Part shown: one piece after another, positions 7,212 through 52,847 of the stretch
Layout: every line of letters begins with the position of its first letter
How positions within the stretch are numbered: the stretch's first letter is position 1
Origin: Nocardioides conyzicola
Lineage (GTDB): Bacteria; Actinomycetota; Actinomycetes; Propionibacteriales; Nocardioidaceae
DNA: 64,000 nucleotides
Assembly (NCBI RefSeq): GCF_039543825.1
Contig: NZ_BAABKM010000001.1
Span: 248,001-312,000, forward strand
Reading direction: 5' to 3'
Made by a program: the position numbers and the translations under genes
The notes under the pieces: model-generated
Told to the model about the DNA's origin: nothing
Database searches by the model: none
Seen by the model: only the letters and a program-made list of their open reading frames with translations

Positions 7212-7445
7212 ATGGTCGACGAGGACACGATGGAGCTCATCCACCGCCGCATGCGCAAGCTCGACGAGTTCGTGACGCCCGGTGCGGCGTCCAAGCGGGT
7301 GGGCTACGACCGGTCCACCCTGAGCGTCGCGTTCCGGGAGGGGCTCGCGCGCGGGTGGTACGAGACCCGCGGCAGCGCGAAGTGGAAGAACCCGCAGACC
7401 GGCGCCCCGGCGACCGAGTACCGGGCCGTGCCCCGCAAGGGCTAG
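7212..7445 (+). CDS. Small hypothetical protein
   Basis: 77 residues from the ATG at 7212: a basic helical start (MELIHRRMRKLDEF), then SKRVGYDRSTLSVAFREGLARGWYETR. The composition suggests a small DNA- or RNA-associated protein, but no family was recognised. An upstream GTG at 7152 would add 20 residues without any supporting ribosome-binding site. It ends 9 bp before the convergent serA stop. Confidence 0.5.
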   Translation: MVDEDTMELIHRRMRKLDEFVTPGAASKRVGYDRSTLSVAFREGLARGWYETRGSAKWKNPQTGAPATEYRAVPRKG

Positions 7446-7454
7446 CCGGCCGGC

Positions 7455-9041
7455 TCAGACCAGGTCGACGGCGCGCACCGAGTCGGCCTCGATGGCGTGC
7501 TGCAGGTCCGCGAGCACGTCGGCGGGGATGGCGGAGTCGACGGAGAGCGCGACCAGCGCCTGGCCGCCCTTGCTGTCGCGGGAGACCTGCATGCCGGCGA
7601 TGTTGATGCCCGCCTCGCCGAGGATGCCGCCGACGGTGCCGACCATGCCCGGGCGGTCGCCGTACGTGAGGAAGGCGAGGTGCTCCGTGGGCTCGAGGTC
7701 GACGTCGTACCCGTTGAGCTCGACCAGGCGCTCGCGCTGGTTGATGCCGACGAGGGTGCCGCTGACGGAGACCTGGGAGCCGTCGGCGAGGGTGCCGCGG
7801 ATCGTGATCAGGTTGCGGTGGTCGGGGCTCTCGGGGTCGATGACCAGGCGCACCGCCATGCCACGCTCGGCGGCGAGGAGCGGGGCGTTCACGTAGGAGA
7901 CCTGGTCCTCGACGATGTCGGCGAAGATGCCCTTGAGGGCCGCGAGCTCGAGCACCTTGACGTCGTAGTCGGTGATCTCGCCGCGCACCTCGACGTCGAC
8001 CTGCTGGGCGACCTCGCCCGCGAGGCCGGTGAAGACCCGGCCGAGCTTCTCGGTGAGCGGGATGCCGGGACGCACGTCCTCGGCGATCACGCCGCCCTGC
8101 ACGTTGACGGCGTCCGGGACCAGCTCGCCCGACAGCGCGAGCCGCACCGAGCGGGCGACCGAGATGCCGGCCTTCTCCTGCGCCTCGTCGGTCGAGGCGC
8201 CGAGGTGCGGCGTGGCGACGACGTTCTCGAGCTCGAAGAGCGGGCTGTCGGTGCAGGGCTCGGACGCGAAGACGTCGAGGCCGGCGGCCGCGACCCGGCC
8301 CTCCTTGAGGGCGGCGTACAGCGCGGGCTCGTCGACGATGCCGCCGCGGGCGGCGTTGACCAGCACCAGCGACGGCTTGACCTTGGCGAGCTGCTCGACG
8401 CCGACCAGGCCGACGGTCTCGGGAGTCTTGGGCAGGTGCACCGACATGAAGTCGGCCTCGGCGAGCAGGGTGTCGAGGTCGACCAGGCGCACGCCCATCT
8501 GGGCGGCGCGGCCGGCCTGGACGTAGGGGTCGTAGGCGATCACCTTCATGCCGAACGCCGAGAGGCGCTGGGCGACGAGGACGCCGATCCGGCCGAGGCC
8601 GACGATGCCGACGGTCTTCTCGTAGAGCTCGACGCCGGTGTAGCGCGAGCGCTTCCACTCACCGGCCTTGAGCGCGGCATGGGCGGGCGAGACGTGCCGC
8701 GCCGCGGCCAGCATCAGCGCGACGGCGAGCTCGGCGGCGGAGACGATGTTGGAGGTCGGCGCGTTGACGACCATGACGCCGGCCTGGGTCGCGGCCCGTA
8801 CGTCGACGTTGTCCAGCCCGACTCCCGCGCGGGCGACCACCTTGAGGCGGGTCGCGGCGGCCAGCGCCTCGGCGTCGACCTTGGTGGCCGAGCGGACCAG
8901 CAGGGCGTCGGCATCGACGATCGCCGCCAGCAGCTCTCCCCGGTCGGCGCCGTTGCAGTGGCGGATCTCGAAGTCCGGGCCGAGCGCCTCGACGGTGGCG
9001 GGGCTCAGCTCTTCGGCGATGAGTACGACGGGCATGCTCAC
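7455..9041 (-). CDS. serA: D-3-phosphoglycerate dehydrogenase, long form
   Basis: 528 residues, first step of phosphorylated serine synthesis: 3-phosphoglycerate to 3-phosphohydroxypyruvate with NAD. N-terminal substrate-binding domain; Rossmann fold with VGIVGLGRIGVLVAQRL (~residues 145-160); catalytic region NAARGGIVDEPALYAAL and the His of ATPHLGASTDEAQ. Residues ~320-450 are the allosteric substrate-binding domain, and the C-terminus (~455-528) is an ACT domain (DRPGMVGTVGGILGEAGINIA) that binds serine for feedback control. Length and domains match the actinobacterial type-I enzyme. It is monocistronic; a TAGAGT -10 candidate near 9118 would give a leader of about 70 nt. Confidence 0.97.
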   Translation of the reverse strand: MSMPVVLIAEELSPATVEALGPDFEIRHCNGADRGELLAAIVDADALLVRSATKVDAEALAAATRLKVVARAGVGLDNVDVRAATQAGVMVVNAPTSNIVSAAELAVALMLAAARHVSPAHAALKAGEWKRSRYTGVELYEKTVGIVGLGRIGVLVAQRLSAFGMKVIAYDPYVQAGRAAQMGVRLVDLDTLLAEADFMSVHLPKTPETVGLVGVEQLAKVKPSLVLVNAARGGIVDEPALYAALKEGRVAAAGLDVFASEPCTDSPLFELENVVATPHLGASTDEAQEKAGISVARSVRLALSGELVPDAVNVQGGVIAEDVRPGIPLTEKLGRVFTGLAGEVAQQVDVEVRGEITDYDVKVLELAALKGIFADIVEDQVSYVNAPLLAAERGMAVRLVIDPESPDHRNLITIRGTLADGSQVSVSGTLVGINQRERLVELNGYDVDLEPTEHLAFLTYGDRPGMVGTVGGILGEAGINIAGMQVSRDSKGGQALVALSVDSAIPADVLADLQHAIEADSVRAVDLV

Positions 9042-45477: not shown

Positions 45478-46638
45478 ATGAGACGCCTCGCCGCCCTGGC
45501 CAGCGCCACGGTCCTCGCCGCCACCGGTCTGACCGCCTGCAGCGACGACGGCAGCGACGCGCCCGGCGCGACCGCATCGTCGCCGACGCAGACCACCGAC
45601 AGCGCGTCGCCGCCCGCGAGCCCGTCGACGAGCGGGTCGCCGTCCGCCGACACGACGCCCCCGAAGGTCGTCGACACGATCGCGACCGGCCTGGCCGCAC
45701 CCTGGGGCATCGGCTTCCTGCCCGACGGCGACGCCATCGTGACGGAGCGCGACACGACCAAGGTGCTCCTGCTCACGAGCCCGTCGTACGACGTGAGCGA
45801 GGTCGGCACCCTGTCGGAGGCCGTGGGCCTCGGTGACCAGGGCGGGGAGGCCGGGCTGCTCGGCGTCGCGGTCTCGCCGGACTTCGCGACCGACCACCTG
45901 CTGTTCTTCTACTACAGCACCGCCACGGAGAACCGGATCGTCAAGGCCACCCTCGAGGACGGCAGGCTCGGCACGCCGACGACGATCCTGGACGGCATCC
46001 CGCGGGGCTTCATCCACGACGGCGGCCGGCTCGCGTTCGGCCCGGACGGCTACCTCTACGCCTCGACCGGCGAGACCGGCAACGGGGAGCTCGCCCAGGA
46101 CAAGGACACCCCCGCCGGCAAGATCCTGCGGATCACGACCGACGGCGAGGCCGCGCCGGGCAACCCGGTGCAGGGCAACCCGTACTGGTCCTACGGGCAC
46201 CGCAACGTGCAGGGCCTCGCGTTCGACGACCGGGACCGGCTCTGGGCCTCGGAGTTCGGGCAGGACACCTACGACGAGCTCAACCTGATCGGCGAGGGCA
46301 ACAACTACGGCTGGCCGATGGTCGAGGGCATGGGCGACGGGGACAGCTCCCTGCAGGACCCCGAGCTCGTCTGGGACACCGACGAGGCCTCGCCGTCCGG
46401 TCTCGCCTGGCTCGACGGCCACCTCTGGATGGCCTCGCTCAGGGGCGAGCGGCTCTGGCGGGTCGACGTGACCGGCACCCGGGCGAAGGACCCGACGGCC
46501 TTCTTCGTCGGCACCTACGGCCGGATGCGCACCGTCGCGGTCGCCCCCGACGGGCGGCTCTGGGTGACCACCAGCAACACCGACGGCCGCGGTGACCCGC
46601 AGGACGGCGACGACCGGATCCTGGTCATCGAGCCCTGA
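45478..46638 (+). CDS. PQQ-dependent sugar dehydrogenase-like lipoprotein (GSDH/sorbosone family)
   Basis: 386 residues. Lipoprotein signal with lipobox GLTAC (Cys ~21), then a Ser/Thr/Pro linker, then a six-bladed beta-propeller: VVDTIATGLAAPWGIGFLPDG, LLGVAVSPDFATDHLLFFYYS, DGGRLAFGPDGYLYASTGE, WSYGHRNVQGLAFDD, the catalytic-face motif EFGQDTYDELNLIGEGNNYG, and WPMVEGMGDGD. It acts on aldoses outside the membrane using PQQ if supplied. No PQQ biosynthesis genes are in the window. It overlaps the convergent ECF gene by 14 bp. Confidence 0.9.
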   Translation: MRRLAALASATVLAATGLTACSDDGSDAPGATASSPTQTTDSASPPASPSTSGSPSADTTPPKVVDTIATGLAAPWGIGFLPDGDAIVTERDTTKVLLLTSPSYDVSEVGTLSEAVGLGDQGGEAGLLGVAVSPDFATDHLLFFYYSTATENRIVKATLEDGRLGTPTTILDGIPRGFIHDGGRLAFGPDGYLYASTGETGNGELAQDKDTPAGKILRITTDGEAAPGNPVQGNPYWSYGHRNVQGLAFDDRDRLWASEFGQDTYDELNLIGEGNNYGWPMVEGMGDGDSSLQDPELVWDTDEASPSGLAWLDGHLWMASLRGERLWRVDVTGTRAKDPTAFFVGTYGRMRTVAVAPDGRLWVTTSNTDGRGDPQDGDDRILVIEP

Positions 46639-47440
46639 CGACCCCGGTCACGGTGGCGCGCCGTGCCGCCCGTCGCAGGGTGGCCAGGATCGCCGGCCCG
46701 AGCACCACGATCGCGACGGCGGTCGTGATCGCGCGCATGGTGTCCCAGCTCCCGGTGGACGTCAGCACCGTGTAGACGAGGAACCGGTGCAGGTTGTCGG
46801 CCAGCTCCGCGCCGGGCACGTAGGACAGCGACCCCTCGTGCCCCTCGACCGCGATGCCGGCGATGAACGGCCAGCCGGACAGGTTCATCAGCAGCCCGAA
46901 CGCGTAGGACGCGACCACGCCGTACGCCGCCAGCGCGGCGATCTCGGCACGCCCGGTGAGCCGGCGCGGCAGCAGCCCGGCGCCCATCCCGACCCAGGCG
47001 GAGCAGAGCATCTGGTAGGGCAGCCACGGCCCGACGCCGGCGGTCATCAGGGCGGACGCGAAGAGCGAGGTGCAGCCCAGCACGAAGCCGAAGCCCGGCC
47101 CGAAGACCCGGCCGCCGAGGATCAGCAGGAAGAACGTGAGCTCGACCCCCGCCGTACCCGGGGAGATGCCACGCAGGATGGCGTTGGCGGCGCTCAGCAC
47201 GCCGAGGACGGCGAGCACCCGTGGGTCCAGGCCCCCCTCGTTGAGCTCGGCGAGCACCACCGCGATCACGATCGGCAGCAGGGCGAGGAAGACGAACGGC
47301 GGGTCGACGCGCTCGCCGGTGCCCGCGCGCAGCAGGAGCGGCCAGCACAGCATCATCAGTCCGGCGACCGACGCGACGGCGAGCACCAGGGCCGAGCGGG
47401 GCGAGATGCGGACGGCTGCCCGGTGGTGATCGAGCTTCAC
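46625..47440 (-). CDS. ECF transporter S component, predicted cobalamin-specific
   Basis: 271 residues, about six to seven membrane helices (SALVLAVASVAGLMMLCWPL, PPFVFLALLPIVIAVVLAEL, VLAVLGVLSAANAILRGISP, VELTFFLLILGGRVFGPGFG, LGCTSLFASALMTAGVGPWL). The length and the RGISPG and GxGFVLG motifs match actinobacterial ECF substrate-binding components. It follows the ATPase by a GTGA overlap, so all five genes are one unit. Cobalamin specificity is inferred from the riboswitch and the secreted partners. The whole set stands in for a BtuCDF importer. Confidence 0.8.
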   Translation of the reverse strand: MKLDHHRAAVRISPRSALVLAVASVAGLMMLCWPLLLRAGTGERVDPPFVFLALLPIVIAVVLAELNEGGLDPRVLAVLGVLSAANAILRGISPGTAGVELTFFLLILGGRVFGPGFGFVLGCTSLFASALMTAGVGPWLPYQMLCSAWVGMGAGLLPRRLTGRAEIAALAAYGVVASYAFGLLMNLSGWPFIAGIAVEGHEGSLSYVPGAELADNLHRFLVYTVLTSTGSWDTMRAITTAVAIVVLGPAILATLRRAARRATVTGVVRAR

Positions 47441-49008
47441 AGGGCCGCCACGACCTCGTCGACGCGCAGCCACGGCGCGCCGAGCACCTTGGTCACCTGC
47501 GGCGCGAACGCCGGCGACTCGGCCACGACGCGACGCACCGGGCCGGACGAGACGACCTCGCCGTCGGCCAGCACGACGACGTCGTCGGCGACTTGGGCCA
47601 CGAACTCCACGTCGTGCGTGGCGACGAGCACGGCACACCCGTCGGCGGTGAGGCCGCGGAGGATGCCGGCGAGGACACGCTTGGCCGCGTAGTCGAGGCC
47701 CCGAGTCGGCTCGTCGAGCAGCAGCACCGGGGGCCGGGACACGAGCACCAGCGCGAGCGCGAGCGCCAGCCGCTGACCCTCGGAGAGGTCGCGCGGGTGC
47801 TGGCCACCGGGGATCCCGGGCACCAGCCGGTCGAGGAGGCCGCGGCAGGCGCTGCTGCCGCCGTCGGCGGCGGCGCACTCCTCGTCGACGGTCTCGAGGT
47901 AGAGCAGGTCGGCGGCGTTCTGCGGCACCAGGCCGACCAGCGCGCGCCGGCCGGCAGGGGCGAGCGCGGCGGGGTCGCTCCCGGCGACGTCGACCCGGCC
48001 CGCCGTACGCCGTCCGCTGCCCTGGACCGCCCACAGCAGCGACGACTTGCCGGAGCCGTTGCGGCCCATCAGCGCGGTCACCCGGCCGGAGCCGAGGTCG
48101 AGGTCGAGGTGGCGTACGGCGACGGTGTGGCCGTGCACGACCTCGAGACCGCGGACGGCGACCGCCGTGGCGGCCGGCGCGTCGACCGGGACGGGCGGCG
48201 GGCCTAGACGGGCGGTGAGGTCGCGGGCCAACCGGCGGGCGTCGCGGACGCTGAGCGGCAGCGGGCTCCAGCCGGCGGCCCGGCCGAGCTCGACGATCGG
48301 CGGCACCACGGGCGAGGTGACCAGCAGCTCGCCGGGCTCCCCCACGGTGACCCGGCCGTCGCCGGTGAGCAGGCACATCCGGTCGACGAACGGGATGACC
48401 CGCTCGAGCCGGTGCTCCGCCAGCAGCACCGAGACCCCGAGGTCGTGCACGAGCCGGGTCAGCGTCGCGAGCACCTCCTCGGCGGCGGTCGGGTCGAGCG
48501 CGGAGGTGGGCTCGTCGAGCACCAGGAGCCGCGGGTGCATGGTCAGCACCGAGCCGATCGCGACGCGCTGCTGCTGCCCGCCCGAGAGGGTGCGCAGGTC
48601 GCGGTGGCGCAGCTCGGCGATGCCGAGCAGGTCGAGGGTCTCCTCCACGCGGCGGCGCATCGTCTCCGGCGGCAGGCCGAGCTGCTCCATGCCGTAGGCG
48701 AGCTCCTCCTCGACCGTGTCGGTGACGAAGCCGGCGGCGGGGTTCTGGCCGACGTACCCGATCGCGTGGGCGCGCTCGCGGGGCGGCGTGCGCACGATGC
48801 TGACGCCGTCCAGCAGCACGTCGCCGTCGAGGGTGCCGCCCGAGAAGCGCGGCACCAGCCCGGTCACGACGCCGAGGAGCGTGGACTTGCCGACGCCGGT
48901 CGGCCCGGAGACCAGCACCAGCTCGCCCTCGTCGACGACCAGGTCGACGTCGGTCAGCACGGCCGGCGCGTCGTCGTAGGAGAAGGCGATCCCGCGGAGC
49001 TCGATCAT
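47437..49008 (-). CDS. ECF transporter double ATPase (EcfA1-EcfA2 fused)
   Basis: 523 residues, two fused ABC domains. Domain 1: Walker A GPTGVGKST, signature LSGGQQQRVAIGS, Walker B LLVLDEPTSALDP, switch His in LLAEHRLERV. Domain 2: GRNGSGKSS, an altered signature LSEGQRLALALALV, Walker B VLLLDEPTRGLDYAA, and VATHDVEFV. It energises the transporter together with the T component, whose stop overlaps its ATG at 49008 by 4 bp. Confidence 0.93.
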   Translation of the reverse strand: MIELRGIAFSYDDAPAVLTDVDLVVDEGELVLVSGPTGVGKSTLLGVVTGLVPRFSGGTLDGDVLLDGVSIVRTPPRERAHAIGYVGQNPAAGFVTDTVEEELAYGMEQLGLPPETMRRRVEETLDLLGIAELRHRDLRTLSGGQQQRVAIGSVLTMHPRLLVLDEPTSALDPTAAEEVLATLTRLVHDLGVSVLLAEHRLERVIPFVDRMCLLTGDGRVTVGEPGELLVTSPVVPPIVELGRAAGWSPLPLSVRDARRLARDLTARLGPPPVPVDAPAATAVAVRGLEVVHGHTVAVRHLDLDLGSGRVTALMGRNGSGKSSLLWAVQGSGRRTAGRVDVAGSDPAALAPAGRRALVGLVPQNAADLLYLETVDEECAAADGGSSACRGLLDRLVPGIPGGQHPRDLSEGQRLALALALVLVSRPPVLLLDEPTRGLDYAAKRVLAGILRGLTADGCAVLVATHDVEFVAQVADDVVVLADGEVVSSGPVRRVVAESPAFAPQVTKVLGAPWLRVDEVVAAL

Positions 49009-50111
49009 GCCGCCACCTCCTCGAGGACGGGGACGACCGGGACGACGTCGGTGCGCGCCGCGGGCGGTGAGCAGAGGGCACCCAGGAGGGCGACGACCCC
49101 GACGGCGAGGGCCGCGACGCTGAGGGCCGGGAACGCGTCGAGGGGCGGGTAGGCGACCACGACCTGGTGGCCGCTCACCCACCAGCCGAGGCCGCCGGCG
49201 ACGAGGCCCGAGGCGACCACGACCAGCTCCGGCCAGCGCCACGGGTCGGGCCGGTAGCGGGTGCGCTCGACGCGGCGCCCGGCGCTGCGCAGGCCGGCGA
49301 CGGCGGCGGCGACCCCGAGTCCGAGCATCGGCAGCGCGAGGACGCGCGGTGCGGTGTGGTCGAGGACGGCGTAGGTCCCGACGCAGATGCCGACCAGGCC
49401 GGTCAGCATGAGGGCGCCGGTCGTACGACGCTGCGCGCGCGTCGCTGCGCCGGCGCGGCCGTAGCCGCGGGCGTCCATCCCGGCGGCGAGGGCGAGGGAG
49501 CGTTCGAGGGCGTCCTCGAGCACGGGCACCAGCAGGCGGCGCAGCGAGGCGACCCGGCCGGTCTCCCCCGCCCGGAGCGCCTGTGCCGCGCGCACCCGGC
49601 GCAGGCTGTCGGCGAACTGCGGCAGCACGCTCACCGCGACCACGAGGGCCGTCCCGATCTCGTAGAGGGCCGGCGGCACCGAGCGGAGCAGCCGCTTGGG
49701 GTTGGCCAGCGAGTTGGCGGCGCCGACACAGATCACGATCGTCGCGAGCCGGAGCCCGTCGTACAGCGCGAAGAGGAGCGCCTGCGAGTAGAGCGGTCCG
49801 AGCAGGGTGATGCCGGCGACCCAGTCGGGCAGCGGGATCGCCGGCAGGTCGAGCAGCACCCGGCCGCCGAAGTAGCCGCCGAAGACGATCCGGAACGCCA
49901 CCCGGATCACCACGATCGCGACGCCCAGCCAGACGTAGATCCGGAAGGACTGGCCCCAGGGCTGCTCCGAGCGCCGCAGGGACACCACGAGGGCGGCGAC
50001 GCCGATCAGCATCAGCAGGACCAGCGGGTTGGTGGTCAGCGACGCGGCGACCGCCAGCCCGATGGCCCACAGCCACCAGGCCACCGGGTGCAGGTCGCGG
50101 GGGCGGCTCAC
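49005..50111 (-). CDS. ECF transporter T component (EcfT/CbiQ-like)
   Basis: 368 residues. Hydrophobic segments (WWLWAIGLAVAASLTTNPLV, YVWLGVAIVVIRVAF, ITLLGPLYSQALLFALYDGL) surround the coupling region with the two motifs that grip the ATPases: RVRAAQALRAGETG and AAGMDARGYGRAG. The C-terminal third adds further helices beyond the usual EcfT length (~270 residues). GTG start at 50111 overlaps the stop of the DUF4430 gene. Confidence 0.9.
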   Translation of the reverse strand: MSRPRDLHPVAWWLWAIGLAVAASLTTNPLVLLMLIGVAALVVSLRRSEQPWGQSFRIYVWLGVAIVVIRVAFRIVFGGYFGGRVLLDLPAIPLPDWVAGITLLGPLYSQALLFALYDGLRLATIVICVGAANSLANPKRLLRSVPPALYEIGTALVVAVSVLPQFADSLRRVRAAQALRAGETGRVASLRRLLVPVLEDALERSLALAAGMDARGYGRAGAATRAQRRTTGALMLTGLVGICVGTYAVLDHTAPRVLALPMLGLGVAAAVAGLRSAGRRVERTRYRPDPWRWPELVVVASGLVAGGLGWWVSGHQVVVAYPPLDAFPALSVAALAVGVVALLGALCSPPAARTDVVPVVPVLEEVAA

Positions 50112-50980
50112 GGGGACGGGTTCCTCCGTCGGCGTACGACGGCGACGGCGCCCCCGGCGGCGAACAGCCCGACCACGACGACCGGGCCGACCCAGGTCGG
50201 CAGGCCGCCGTCGGCGGGGTCGGCGGGGTCGGCGGGGTCGGCGGCCGTCGAGGTGAGCGGCGACGGGGTCGTCGACGTCGACGTCGACTCGGGCAGCATC
50301 TCCCCGTCCACGCCGCCGGGCGACTTCGTCGGCTGGCCGACCTTGCCGGGCGCCAGGGTCGTGACCGACGGGCTGGGAGAGGTCGGCGTGCCCGATGACT
50401 CCGACGGCGCCGCCGACGTCGTGCTGGAGGGCTTCTTCGTGGGTGCGGCGCTCGCGTGGTGGGTCGGCCTCACGCTCGGCCTGGTCGTCGGCTTGCTGGT
50501 CGGCGTCGGCGCCGCGTGGTGCGCGGCCGGACTGACACCGGGGGCGGACCGCGAGGAGCTGCCGTTCCAGGAGAACGCGACGTACCCGCCGTCGGGGACG
50601 GTCTGGGAGCCGGCGCCGCGGGTGGCGTAGGTCCACTGGCCCGAGGTCCCGTCCGACCACCACAGTCCCCAGTAGGCGTCGGCCGGCGGGGTGTTGACGC
50701 AGGAGCTGCTCGGCTTGGCGTCCACCTGGCACACGAAGCCCGGCTGGCGCTGGACGTAGGACAGGTCGAAGCCGCCGGCCTCGAAGAGCGTCGAGGCGGC
50801 CTTCCCCCCACCGTCGGCGATGCAGGCCGTCTGCACCCCGCCGCCGAGCTCGTGGAAGTCCACCACCACGCTCACCCCGTCGCCGGTGGAGCAGGTCGCG
50901 GCTTCGGCACCCGAGAGAGGGACGACGCTCGCCGCCGCGGCCAGGAGGCACGCGGCGGCGAGGCGTACGCCGTGGGACAT
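50108..50980 (-). CDS. Membrane-anchored DUF4430-like protein (transcobalamin beta-domain-like)
   Basis: 290 residues. Signal peptide (AAACLLAAAASVVPLSG, then AEA). Residues ~30-145 resemble DUF4430, the beta domain of intrinsic factor/transcobalamin: VSVVVDFHELGGGVQTACI, then AASTLFEAGGFDLSYVQRQ, FVCQVDAKPSSSC, YWGLWWSDGTSGQWTYATR and GYVAFSWNG. A Thr/Ser/Pro-rich stalk follows and then a C-terminal helix (WVGPVVVVGLFAAGGAVAVV) with RRRR, anchoring it in the membrane outer face. The family link is by recognised pattern. It starts 2 bp after the toroid gene's stop. Probable B12-binding lid or presenter for the ECF importer. Confidence 0.78.
   Translation of the reverse strand: MSHGVRLAAACLLAAAASVVPLSGAEAATCSTGDGVSVVVDFHELGGGVQTACIADGGGKAASTLFEAGGFDLSYVQRQPGFVCQVDAKPSSSCVNTPPADAYWGLWWSDGTSGQWTYATRGAGSQTVPDGGYVAFSWNGSSSRSAPGVSPAAHHAAPTPTSKPTTRPSVRPTHHASAAPTKKPSSTTSAAPSESSGTPTSPSPSVTTLAPGKVGQPTKSPGGVDGEMLPESTSTSTTPSPLTSTAADPADPADPADGGLPTWVGPVVVVGLFAAGGAVAVVRRRRNPSP
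50212..50244. repeat. 9-bp tandem repeat in the stalk of the DUF4430-like protein
   Basis: CGGCGGGGT is repeated three times in tandem (50212-50238) with a partial fourth copy to 50244. On the coding (minus) strand it encodes the Pro-Ala-Asp repeats just before the C-terminal membrane helix. In-frame slippage here would alter stalk length only. Confidence 0.85.
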
Positions 50981-50982
50981 GG

Positions 50983-52593
50983 TCAGCGGACGACCTTGAA
51001 GGTCTTGCTGCCCTTGCGGTTGGCGAACTCGCCGACCACGGTGACCTTGAAGGTGCCCGGCTTGCCGTACTTGCCGGTCGCCTTCGCCGAGGCGACGAAG
51101 ACGCCCTTCCTGGTGGCCTGGCCGCTCCTGGTCTTGCCGAGCAGCTTGACCCTGACCGTCTCGCCGGGCGCGAGCCCGGTGACCCTGACGGTCTGGGTCG
51201 TGCCCTTGCGGACCTTGGCCTTGAGCTTGATCGGCAGCTTCTTCGCGCCGAGCGCCTTGATCGTCGCCGTGTCAGCGACGCCGCCAGCCGTCGAGATCGT
51301 GACCCGGGTCGTGGCCGTCTTCGCGCCCAGCGCGATCGGGAACTGCGCCTCGCCGTTGGCGTCGGCCACGCGGGCGACCTTCTGGGTGCCGGCGGCTGCG
51401 CACAGGGTCTCGCCGGGAGCGGCACCGACGACGCCGACGCGCGGCTTGGTGCCGGCCTTGACGTACTCGGCGGTGAAGAGGGCGGAGACGCCCGGGCCGG
51501 CCGGCGCCCACTGCAGGACCGGGAGCGCCTGCGCGGTCGCTCGGCGGAACTGGTCCGCGGTCTCGGCCGCGATCGGGGTGGTGTCGACCTCGCTCAGCGC
51601 GGTGTCGTCGTACGCGATGGACCCGGTGTCGGCCGCGGCGTACGTCGTGCAGGATCCGGCATTCGTGACCTGGTGCGCGCGGACCCAGACGGCGGCCTTG
51701 GCGGCAGCCGAGGTGTCGCCCAGGGCGGCGAGCGCCGTGCCGGCGAGGCCGGTGCTGTTGGCGTTGGCCGCCTCGGTGGACGGGCCACCTCCGAAGGAGC
51801 CATCGGCCTTCTGGCTCGACTCGAGCCAGCTCTTGGCCAGTGCCAGCTTCTCCGCCACGTCGACGTCCGCGGACTGCGAGGTCAGCGCGAGGACGGCGAT
51901 CGCGGTGGCGTCGGTGTCGGGCTGGCTCGTGGCGTCGCCTTCGCAGGTCTGGATCTCCGAGCTGCGGGACGGGAAGTCCAGCCGGAACCAGCCCGCGGCG
52001 CACTGCTGCTCGAGCAGGTAGTTGGTCACCGCACCGGCCTTGGGGCTGTCGGCGGCGACGAGCGCCTGCGCGGCGTAGGCCTGGCCGAAGGCGTTGGTGT
52101 CGCCGTACTCGTTGTTCTCGTCCACGACGCGCCCGTTGATCGGCGCGGTCGACCCCACCCGGCTCTCGAGCTCGGCGATCAGGTCGTGCCCACCGAAGTC
52201 GGCGGTGCTGCTGCCGGCCGCCTGGGCCAGCACGGCCGCCTTCGCGAGCGAGCCCGCGTAGAGCGTCGTCTGGCCCTCGTACGTCGAGGTGTACCACTCG
52301 TCGTGGGCGCGCGGCTCGATCGCGTCGGCGATGGCCGACACCGTGGCGTCATGGCCGCCGATGCGGTGCAGGCCGAGCGCGACGTCCGCGCTCAGGCCGA
52401 GGTCGTCGAAGTCGTACTGGTCGTTGTGGACGATCCCGCTGCTCAGCTGAGAGGTGAGCCAGGTGGCCGCAGAGTCGGCGGCGACGGGGTCGGTCCCGGC
52501 GGCCGAGGCGGTCCCCGGGGTGGCGGCGAGCGCCGCGAGGGCCAGTGTGGGGACGGCCACGAGGGCGGCCCCACGTCGTACGGAGCGAAGCAT
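50983..52593 (-). CDS. Secreted alpha/alpha-toroid-like protein (transcobalamin alpha-domain-like)
   Basis: 536 residues. Signal peptide (VAVPTLALAALAATPGTASA). Residues ~35-370 are helical repeats typical of the prenyltransferase/squalene-cyclase/cobalamin_bind toroid, with recurring DANAFGQAYAAQALVAAD-like, ATAIAVLALTSQSADVDV and NSTGLAGTALAALGDTSA pairs and KADGSFGGG turns. Cys pairs (LLEQQCAAGW, EIQTCEGD) may form disulfides. Residues ~385-536 are Ig-like beta segments. Animal intrinsic factor has just such a toroid followed by DUF4430. First gene behind the cobalamin riboswitch. Direct B12 binding is inferred. Confidence 0.78.
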   Translation of the reverse strand: MLRSVRRGAALVAVPTLALAALAATPGTASAAGTDPVAADSAATWLTSQLSSGIVHNDQYDFDDLGLSADVALGLHRIGGHDATVSAIADAIEPRAHDEWYTSTYEGQTTLYAGSLAKAAVLAQAAGSSTADFGGHDLIAELESRVGSTAPINGRVVDENNEYGDTNAFGQAYAAQALVAADSPKAGAVTNYLLEQQCAAGWFRLDFPSRSSEIQTCEGDATSQPDTDATAIAVLALTSQSADVDVAEKLALAKSWLESSQKADGSFGGGPSTEAANANSTGLAGTALAALGDTSAAAKAAVWVRAHQVTNAGSCTTYAAADTGSIAYDDTALSEVDTTPIAAETADQFRRATAQALPVLQWAPAGPGVSALFTAEYVKAGTKPRVGVVGAAPGETLCAAAGTQKVARVADANGEAQFPIALGAKTATTRVTISTAGGVADTATIKALGAKKLPIKLKAKVRKGTTQTVRVTGLAPGETVRVKLLGKTRSGQATRKGVFVASAKATGKYGKPGTFKVTVVGEFANRKGSKTFKVVR

Positions 52594-52598
52594 GGTGT

Positions 52599-52618
52599 CC
52601 TTCCCGCTGCTCAGCGGG
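52599..52618 (-). promoter_or_regulatory. Hairpin next to the ribosome-binding site of the B12-operon first gene
   Basis: On the minus strand CCCGCT (52618-52613) and AGCGGG (52608-52603) form a stem with a 4-nt loop; the 3' arm merges with GGGAAGG (52605-52599), the Shine-Dalgarno region, 5 nt before the ATG at 52593. It may be the riboswitch's translational expression platform. Confidence 0.5.
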
Positions 52619-52659
52619 AGGTGCTCGAGGATGCTCCTCGGGTCGCCACCCGCTGCTTT

Positions 52660-52815
52660 CCACGACAGCGATGTGATCAGGACGCGTCGTGTCGGGTGCT
52701 CCGGCTCGTCGTCGGCCCAAGGACCGACGACCCACGGTTGCGGGTCAGCGCCGGAATCTCACCGGCTTCCCCCGCCACGGGCGTGCGTTGATGTGCCCGC
52801 GCAGCATAACCCGGC
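52660..52815 (-). ncRNA. Cobalamin (AdoCbl) riboswitch
   Basis: On the minus strand the conserved core reads GGGGGAAGCCGGTGAGATTC then CGGCGCTGACCCGCAACCG, the classic cobalamin-riboswitch junction (about 52775-52735). A Cys-like B12-box region GAGCCGGAGCACCCGAC follows about 40 nt later, around 52706-52690, after a stable hairpin GTCGTCGG/CCGACGAC. The element ends ~70-100 nt before the ATG at 52593. Exact ends are approximate. B12 binding would repress the downstream capture/ECF operon. Confidence 0.9.
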
Positions 52816-52847
52816 CCTTCCCGGAGCCTGTGGTCGCCGCCAGATCC

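Follow-up and report, generated by a model that had tools for sequence, protein, structure and literature searches.

How does an actinobacterium use two surface proteins that are encoded, behind a cobalamin riboswitch, together with an energy-coupling factor (ECF) importer? The question is raised by a five-gene operon of Nocardioides conyzicola in the window analyzed here, which comprises 64 kb of DNA (positions 248,001 to 312,000 of contig NZ_BAABKM010000001.1, assembly GCF_039543825.1; coordinates below are those of the window). The operon is probably an import system for a corrinoid, most likely cobalamin, under cobalamin riboswitch control, with a two-protein surface trap and hand-over to the ECF transporter. 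Computation supplied the gene order and the riboswitch, both folds, the conservation of the set, the fused frames of relatives, and the retention in genomes of the genus that lack corrin-ring genes and carry MetH. The riboswitch and all five genes lie on the minus strand of the window:

52674..52823, minus strand: cobalamin riboswitch aptamer RF00174, in the leader (cmscan 37.5 bits, gathering score 31.5)
50983..52593, minus strand: secreted toroid protein, 536 residues (open reading frame; toroid by model, signal-like N terminus by sequence)
50108..50980, minus strand: small beta protein, 290 residues (open reading frame; transcobalamin beta-type ectodomain by fold)
49005..50111, minus strand: ECF T component (CbiQ family), 368 residues (PF02361, 44 bits, cut-off 25)
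47437..49008, minus strand: ECF ATPase with two ABC domains, 523 residues (PF00005, 164.6 bits, two stretches)
46625..47440, minus strand: ECF S component (ECF_trnsprt), 271 residues (PF12822, 33.6 bits, cut-off 30.7)

The aptamer, the sole Rfam match above a gathering score in the window, ends 80 nucleotides before the toroid gene. A gap of 2 nucleotides separates the toroid and small genes, the remaining three junctions are 4-nucleotide overlaps, the T and S genes start with GTG, and the G+C content at third codon positions is 0.95–0.97 across all five genes. An earlier note on this DNA had described a riboswitch before five overlapping or abutting genes, the last three of them encoding ECF T, double-ATPase, and S components; both descriptions are borne out, with a CbiQ-type T component, two ABC_tran stretches, and an ECF_trnsprt S component in one locus, all above their Pfam cut-offs.

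The predicted structure of the 536-residue protein contains an alpha/alpha toroid (approximately residues 30–365) behind a signal-like N terminus, and the structural match spans the whole barrel. The secreted toroid proposed earlier thus holds, with the refinement that the protein is beta-rich beyond residue 370, where Foldseek matches are immunoglobulin (Ig)-like proteins. In Pfam the protein reached just 20.2 bits for Prenyltrans (cut-off 26.5), and it did not match the transcobalamin toroid family PF01122 at E ≤ 1; PF01122 was likewise absent from the eight families matched at E ≤ 0.01 by 67 sequences. Across 18 aligned toroids, conserved polar positions include D70, Q171, D228, T230, and N279, which in the proposed trap would be expected to point toward the corrin. 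A viral fold library searched with the toroid protein returned mostly phage proteins among the best 50 matches, with named domains that were mainly Ig-, Big-, or FN3-like, and these matches were not used.

In the 290-residue protein, a signal-like N terminus leads into a transcobalamin beta-type ectodomain (approximately residues 28–147), which a Pro/Ser/Thr-rich stalk connects to a hydrophobic C-terminal stretch with Arg residues behind it; the signal and membrane anchor were assigned by eye, and the surface location is read from the sequence. In its model the match to the transcobalamin beta-domain fold ranks clearly above other folds. Of the DUF4430-like, membrane-anchored protein claimed in the earlier note, the transcobalamin-type beta domain survives as a modeled fold and membership of PF14478 does not, so that the DUF4430 likeness lies in the predicted fold and not in Pfam. 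Similarly, the transcobalamin domain pair on two polypeptides is retained as two folds that are indeed split, with both family matches (PF01122 and PF14478) missing and the toroid nearer to terpene cyclases. PF14478 itself was found in 3 of 246 class genomes, all of a single genus, and in two of these (L030 and L031) a DUF4430 gene, whose product belongs to proteins named DUF4430, directly follows the toroid gene. The family NF040672 (SCO2322 family) was matched at E ≤ 0.01 by 19 of the 24 ectodomains of the class-wide alignment; the window protein missed its curated score (15.8 bits, cut-off 85). Sequence searches for solved relatives of the small protein yielded low-complexity or unrelated matches alone and were set aside.

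The gene order and the riboswitch extend beyond one genome: both are conserved throughout the class and, in part, the phylum. Conservation was followed in a class-wide survey of 20 loci selected by a small-protein profile match, in a survey anchored on the S gene that comprised the best 80 of at least 592 loci and is biased to close relatives, and in a phylum survey of 20 loci hand-picked from the 64 of 198 phylum genomes with an S-profile match, 18 of them outside the class; the record L115 seems to be the same as L031. Class-wide, the T, ATPase, and S genes were present at 19 of 20 loci (at L045 the contig stops inside the T gene), and the toroid was present at 16, plus L046 with a wider profile, the loci without it being L037 (which starts at the small gene), L048, and L049. 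All five genes were found at 63 of the 80 S-anchored loci, where the small protein was present at 71 and the toroid at 65. The phylum loci divided into 7 with all five genes, 5 with a toroid and no recognized small protein, 3 with a small protein and no toroid, and 5 with neither. The small-protein profile (A3) matched 160 of 198 family genomes, weak tail matches included, and 74 of 246 class genomes, tallies that overstate the presence of the domain (chiefly the 74 of 246, less so the 160 of 198) because the full-length profile also matches Pro/Ser/Thr tails. The S components of 17 relatives share 46–76% identity with that of the window. Since the arrangement recurs in many genomes, it is more than chance.

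Several neighboring or divergent arrangements were also recorded. In the window, a convergent open reading frame on the plus strand (45478–46638), which we take to encode a protein resembling a secreted sugar dehydrogenase, shares 14 nucleotides with the end of the S gene. L048 (8222–11625) and L049 (5677–10405) carry small proteins that look lipoprotein-like by eye and separate ATPase genes, perhaps for another substrate. At the phylum-level loci L142, L143, L144, and L146, a toroid gene stands directly behind a distant S gene, and a small protein was not recognized. At L145 (2–4171), an open frame of 1390 residues gave a weak match to the DUF4430 profile (E = 9e-4) and, by eye, shows similar repeats; an ECF ATPase and a distant S gene lie nearby, and the frame resembles the large surface proteins described in the consulted portion of a 2007 paper (PMC1796856).

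The riboswitch accompanies the operon in most relatives with visible leaders. Class-wide, RF00174 reached the Rfam score ahead of the operon or its first genes at 10 of 20 loci (L031, L032, L033, L034, L036, L040, L044, L045, L046, and L047) and stayed below that score at 7 (L030, L035, L038, L039, L041, L042, and L043); it was not found at L048 and L049, nor at L037, which starts at the small gene and was scanned at the gathering score only. For a covariance model (R1), 11 leaders were taken from the window and eight other loci (L031, L032, L034, L039, L040, L044, L045, and L047); its E-values are therefore rough, and the Rfam model serves as a separate count. R1 located 88 sites in the 80 S-anchored loci, 82 of them less than 1 kb before a same-strand module gene and 6 elsewhere. 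At 69 loci a site on the operon strand precedes a module gene; of the 11 loci without one, 10 begin at the first gene or within the operon. The toroid is the closest module gene downstream of 63 of the 88 sites. Among the 20 phylum loci, a module gene follows such a site at 9, and 6 weaker sites occur in other positions. At L032 (7501–8719), three riboswitches occur within 1.3 kb, each preceding a toroid or small-protein gene.

Do the two surface proteins act together? The best sign that they do is the presence of fused frames in relatives, which make up 6 of the 120 loci surveyed (20 + 80 + 20). In L098 and L135, a single stop-free frame runs from toroid to beta domain to hydrophobic end, which is the domain order of transcobalamin. 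L090 and L096 have the beta domain before the toroid in one frame (in L096 at a second site on the other strand), L103 has a beta domain followed by two toroids, and L112 is ambiguous, with toroid and beta domain in one frame and a hydrophobic stretch between them. No fusion was detected at the first 20 class-wide loci with the narrower profiles.

The cargo was approached through the gene content of the host genomes. In the window's own genome, another contig carries three further RF00174 sites immediately upstream of corrinoid genes: one before CobH with CobI/CobJ, one before cobaltochelatase with a CobO-type adenosyltransferase, and one before CobN, with CobK nearby. This genome also encodes MetH and four mutase-family matches, as well as five PF01497 matches; PF01497 is generic and uninformative on BtuF, and the operon is therefore not claimed as the sole B12 importer. 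In the 28 CobH-negative genomes of the genus, the small protein was found in all (27 at E < 1e-15), MetH in all, and CobK in one (G102, in pieces), whose CobH may be lost to assembly because the CobK pieces lie at contig ends. The riboswitch search covered 27 of the 28, G102 being left out for its CobK pieces, and in 26 of the 26 genomes with a located small gene RF00174 was detected on the same strand 1.2–2.0 kb before that gene, with 18 scores reaching the curated threshold and 8 falling short of it. G156 falls outside this count because its small-protein match is weak; its locus (L157) has a weak small domain followed by T, ATPase, and S genes behind a riboswitch. That genomes lacking ring genes and expected to need B12 keep the operon argues for cobalamin or a late corrinoid as the cargo and against cobalt.

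A second riboswitch above 75 bits was detected in 18 of these 27 genomes. Nine stretches were fetched around other riboswitches, with gene scans excluding L152, L153, and L158, and in the three cases where the next gene was scanned the second riboswitch precedes a ribonucleotide reductase alpha subunit rather than an importer. These cases are of the NrdA type in CobH-negative genomes (L150 in G178, L151 in G125, and L154 in G183; an NCBIfam name was obtained for L150 alone), and the choice of reductase may therefore depend on B12 status. L155 (G182) contains a divergent pair of cobalamin riboswitches (7245–7578) with a distant S-component homologue (E = 5e-27) about 5 kb off; the flanking open reading frames, perhaps not true frames, had no Pfam or NCBIfam match. 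Similar pairs occur in G170, G181, G192, G194, and G196, and that of L155 possibly marks a second corrinoid system.

Taken together, these results describe a real, widespread, and B12-regulated system whose most likely role is to import corrinoids by means of a surface trap of two proteins. The riboswitch would presumably turn the operon down when B12 is plentiful. The secreted toroid and the membrane-anchored beta protein may hold one corrinoid between them, as the two domains of transcobalamin do, and the anchor of the beta protein would retain the complex at the membrane; the ligand would pass to the S component, and the T component and double-ATPase module would move it inward. In the window's own genome, with its corrin-ring genes, the system would recover B12 or its precursors from outside whenever the internal pool runs low. 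The bold element of this proposal is the predicted transfer of the ligand from extracellular proteins to an ECF S component, and we find the case evenly balanced for its full form, an ECF importer that depends on extracellular capture, in which the two polypeptides would close round one B12, as transcobalamin's halves do, and would then dock, once loaded, on the S component.

A number of observations count against the proposed importer and its trap. The 290-residue protein has no Pfam match, and at the curated score PF14478 was matched by 0 of 68 close sequences (A1) and 0 of 24 class-wide sequences (A4), the window protein included; its best Foldseek E-value was 0.018, with no match at or below 0.001, and profile-profile comparison with true DUF4430 proteins gave weak matches, though in register (E = 0.0053 and 0.0024, probability 6.8 and 12.3). 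Transcobalamin is not among the best 50 structural matches of the toroid, an absence that is in itself no evidence against kinship. A profile of 18 S components found no solved S component at E ≤ 10, a comparison that covers solved structures and not the CbrT sequence. L048 and L049 have the small, T, ATPase, and S genes with neither toroid nor riboswitch found, and L109 is the sole one of the 80 S-anchored loci with visible upstream DNA and no R1 leader match. Across the 72 genomes of the genus, the small protein occurs with CobH in 38 and alone in 28, CobH occurs alone in 6, and no genome lacks both; the association is not significant (Fisher P = 0.075; at E < 1e-15 the counts are 38, 27, 6, and 1 and P = 0.24), and the genomes are related. 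A rival reading is an S/T/ATPase module that imports a corrinoid alone, with the toroid and beta proteins serving another purpose at the surface, for example holding B12 against competitors or acting on a cell-wall sugar, and no hand-over. An ECF S component is described as a substrate-binding protein in the consulted part of PMC5997447, the small protein stands beside T, ATPase, and S genes without a detected toroid at 8 of 80 loci (one of which, L067, starts at the small gene), and the toroids of GH76 enzymes and epimerases also match the fold of the toroid protein. We nevertheless judge such a division of labor unlikely, given that both domains occur in single open frames, that toroid/beta adjacency is conserved, and that the toroid is so often the first module gene behind the riboswitch.

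The corrin-ring genes of the window's own genome also speak against an importer of corrinoids and, together with the CbiQ family of the T component, would agree with a CbiMNQO-like cobalt importer feeding B12 synthesis, CbiMNQO being often under B12 riboswitches as well. The S gene, however, matches ECF_trnsprt, with CbiM and CbiN not among its Pfam matches, and the CobH-negative genomes that keep the small protein are, in 27 of 28 cases, also without CobK and should therefore have no use for cobalt in ring synthesis, which makes cobalt a very improbable cargo. Even less probable is a secreted terpene-cyclase-like enzyme with an indirect link to B12. Squalene-hopene and drimenyl diphosphate cyclases are the top sequence and fold matches of the toroid, which is closer to terpene cyclases than to transcobalamin by sequence and, among the matches listed, by fold; yet the class II terpene cyclase acid motif is DXDD, the window toroid reads D-T-D-A at that position, and an Asp at the fourth place occurs in 0 of the 18 toroids of alignment A5. 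Moreover, the toroid protein appears to be exported, and its gene shares a riboswitch-controlled operon with an importer.

If the full form of the proposal, with capture outside the cell, is true, bacteria would possess an equivalent of intrinsic factor made of two chains, and the one-chain forms at the same operon position would show how fused and split carriers interconvert. The operon adds a large group with split proteins to the bacterial relatives of intrinsic factor, and it provides a candidate corrinoid uptake route for many Actinomycetota, among them those members of the window's genus without corrin-ring genes. To our knowledge, an extracellular capture step is not known for ECF transporters, and the question is raised whether they can work with outside binding proteins.

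Among known systems, the closest in outline are the transcobalamin-like SLBB systems. In the portions consulted, Burroughs et al. 2007 (PMC1796856) describe a transcobalamin-like clade in low-GC Gram-positives, planctomycetes, and euryarchaea, with signal peptides, surface anchoring, toroid fusions on either side of the beta-grasp domain, paralogous SLBB pairs, and operons with CbiQ and CbiO, and predict scavenging of B12 or its precursors. The operon studied here shares putative signal peptides, a surface beta-grasp protein with a toroid, its surface location being read from the sequence, an operon with CbiQ and CbiO, and a predicted role in scavenging B12; it differs in being actinobacterial, mostly on two polypeptides, outside PF14478, under a cobalamin riboswitch, and in a host with corrin-ring genes. 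Neither a split toroid/beta pair, a riboswitch, nor an actinobacterial member of the clade was found in those portions, the consulted parts of PMC3766115, PMC2667541, and PMC4350170 hold nothing on the operon, and we recognized no paper in the open-licence PMC literature as treating this actinobacterial operon. Animal intrinsic factor, transcobalamin, and haptocorrin have both folds, and L098 and L135 share their toroid-then-beta order in one frame; the window's proteins differ from them in being split, in a toroid nearer to terpene cyclases, in the extra Ig-like part, and in adjoining an importer, whereas the animal carriers use endocytosis. With regard to NF040672, many class-wide ectodomains match and the window protein stays below the cut-off, and the family name carries no function. 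For import itself, the consulted text shows ECF-CbrT of Lactobacillus delbrueckii to be a BtuF-independent importer of cobalamin and cobinamide (PMC5997447), and partial views of two further sources list CbrUVT for cobyrinate diamide uptake (PMC8123684) and CbrVUT in Lactobacillus (PMC6722938). The mechanism was therefore predicted in outline in 2007, and a BtuF-independent ECF route for corrinoids, shown for CbrT and predicted here, was already known; compared with CbrT, the present system has an S profile without a solved S match, T and double-ATPase genes in the operon, and two extra surface proteins. What is added to the 2007 domain-context prediction is regulation, through the riboswitch in most visible leaders, and need, through retention of the operon in genomes that lack the ring genes.

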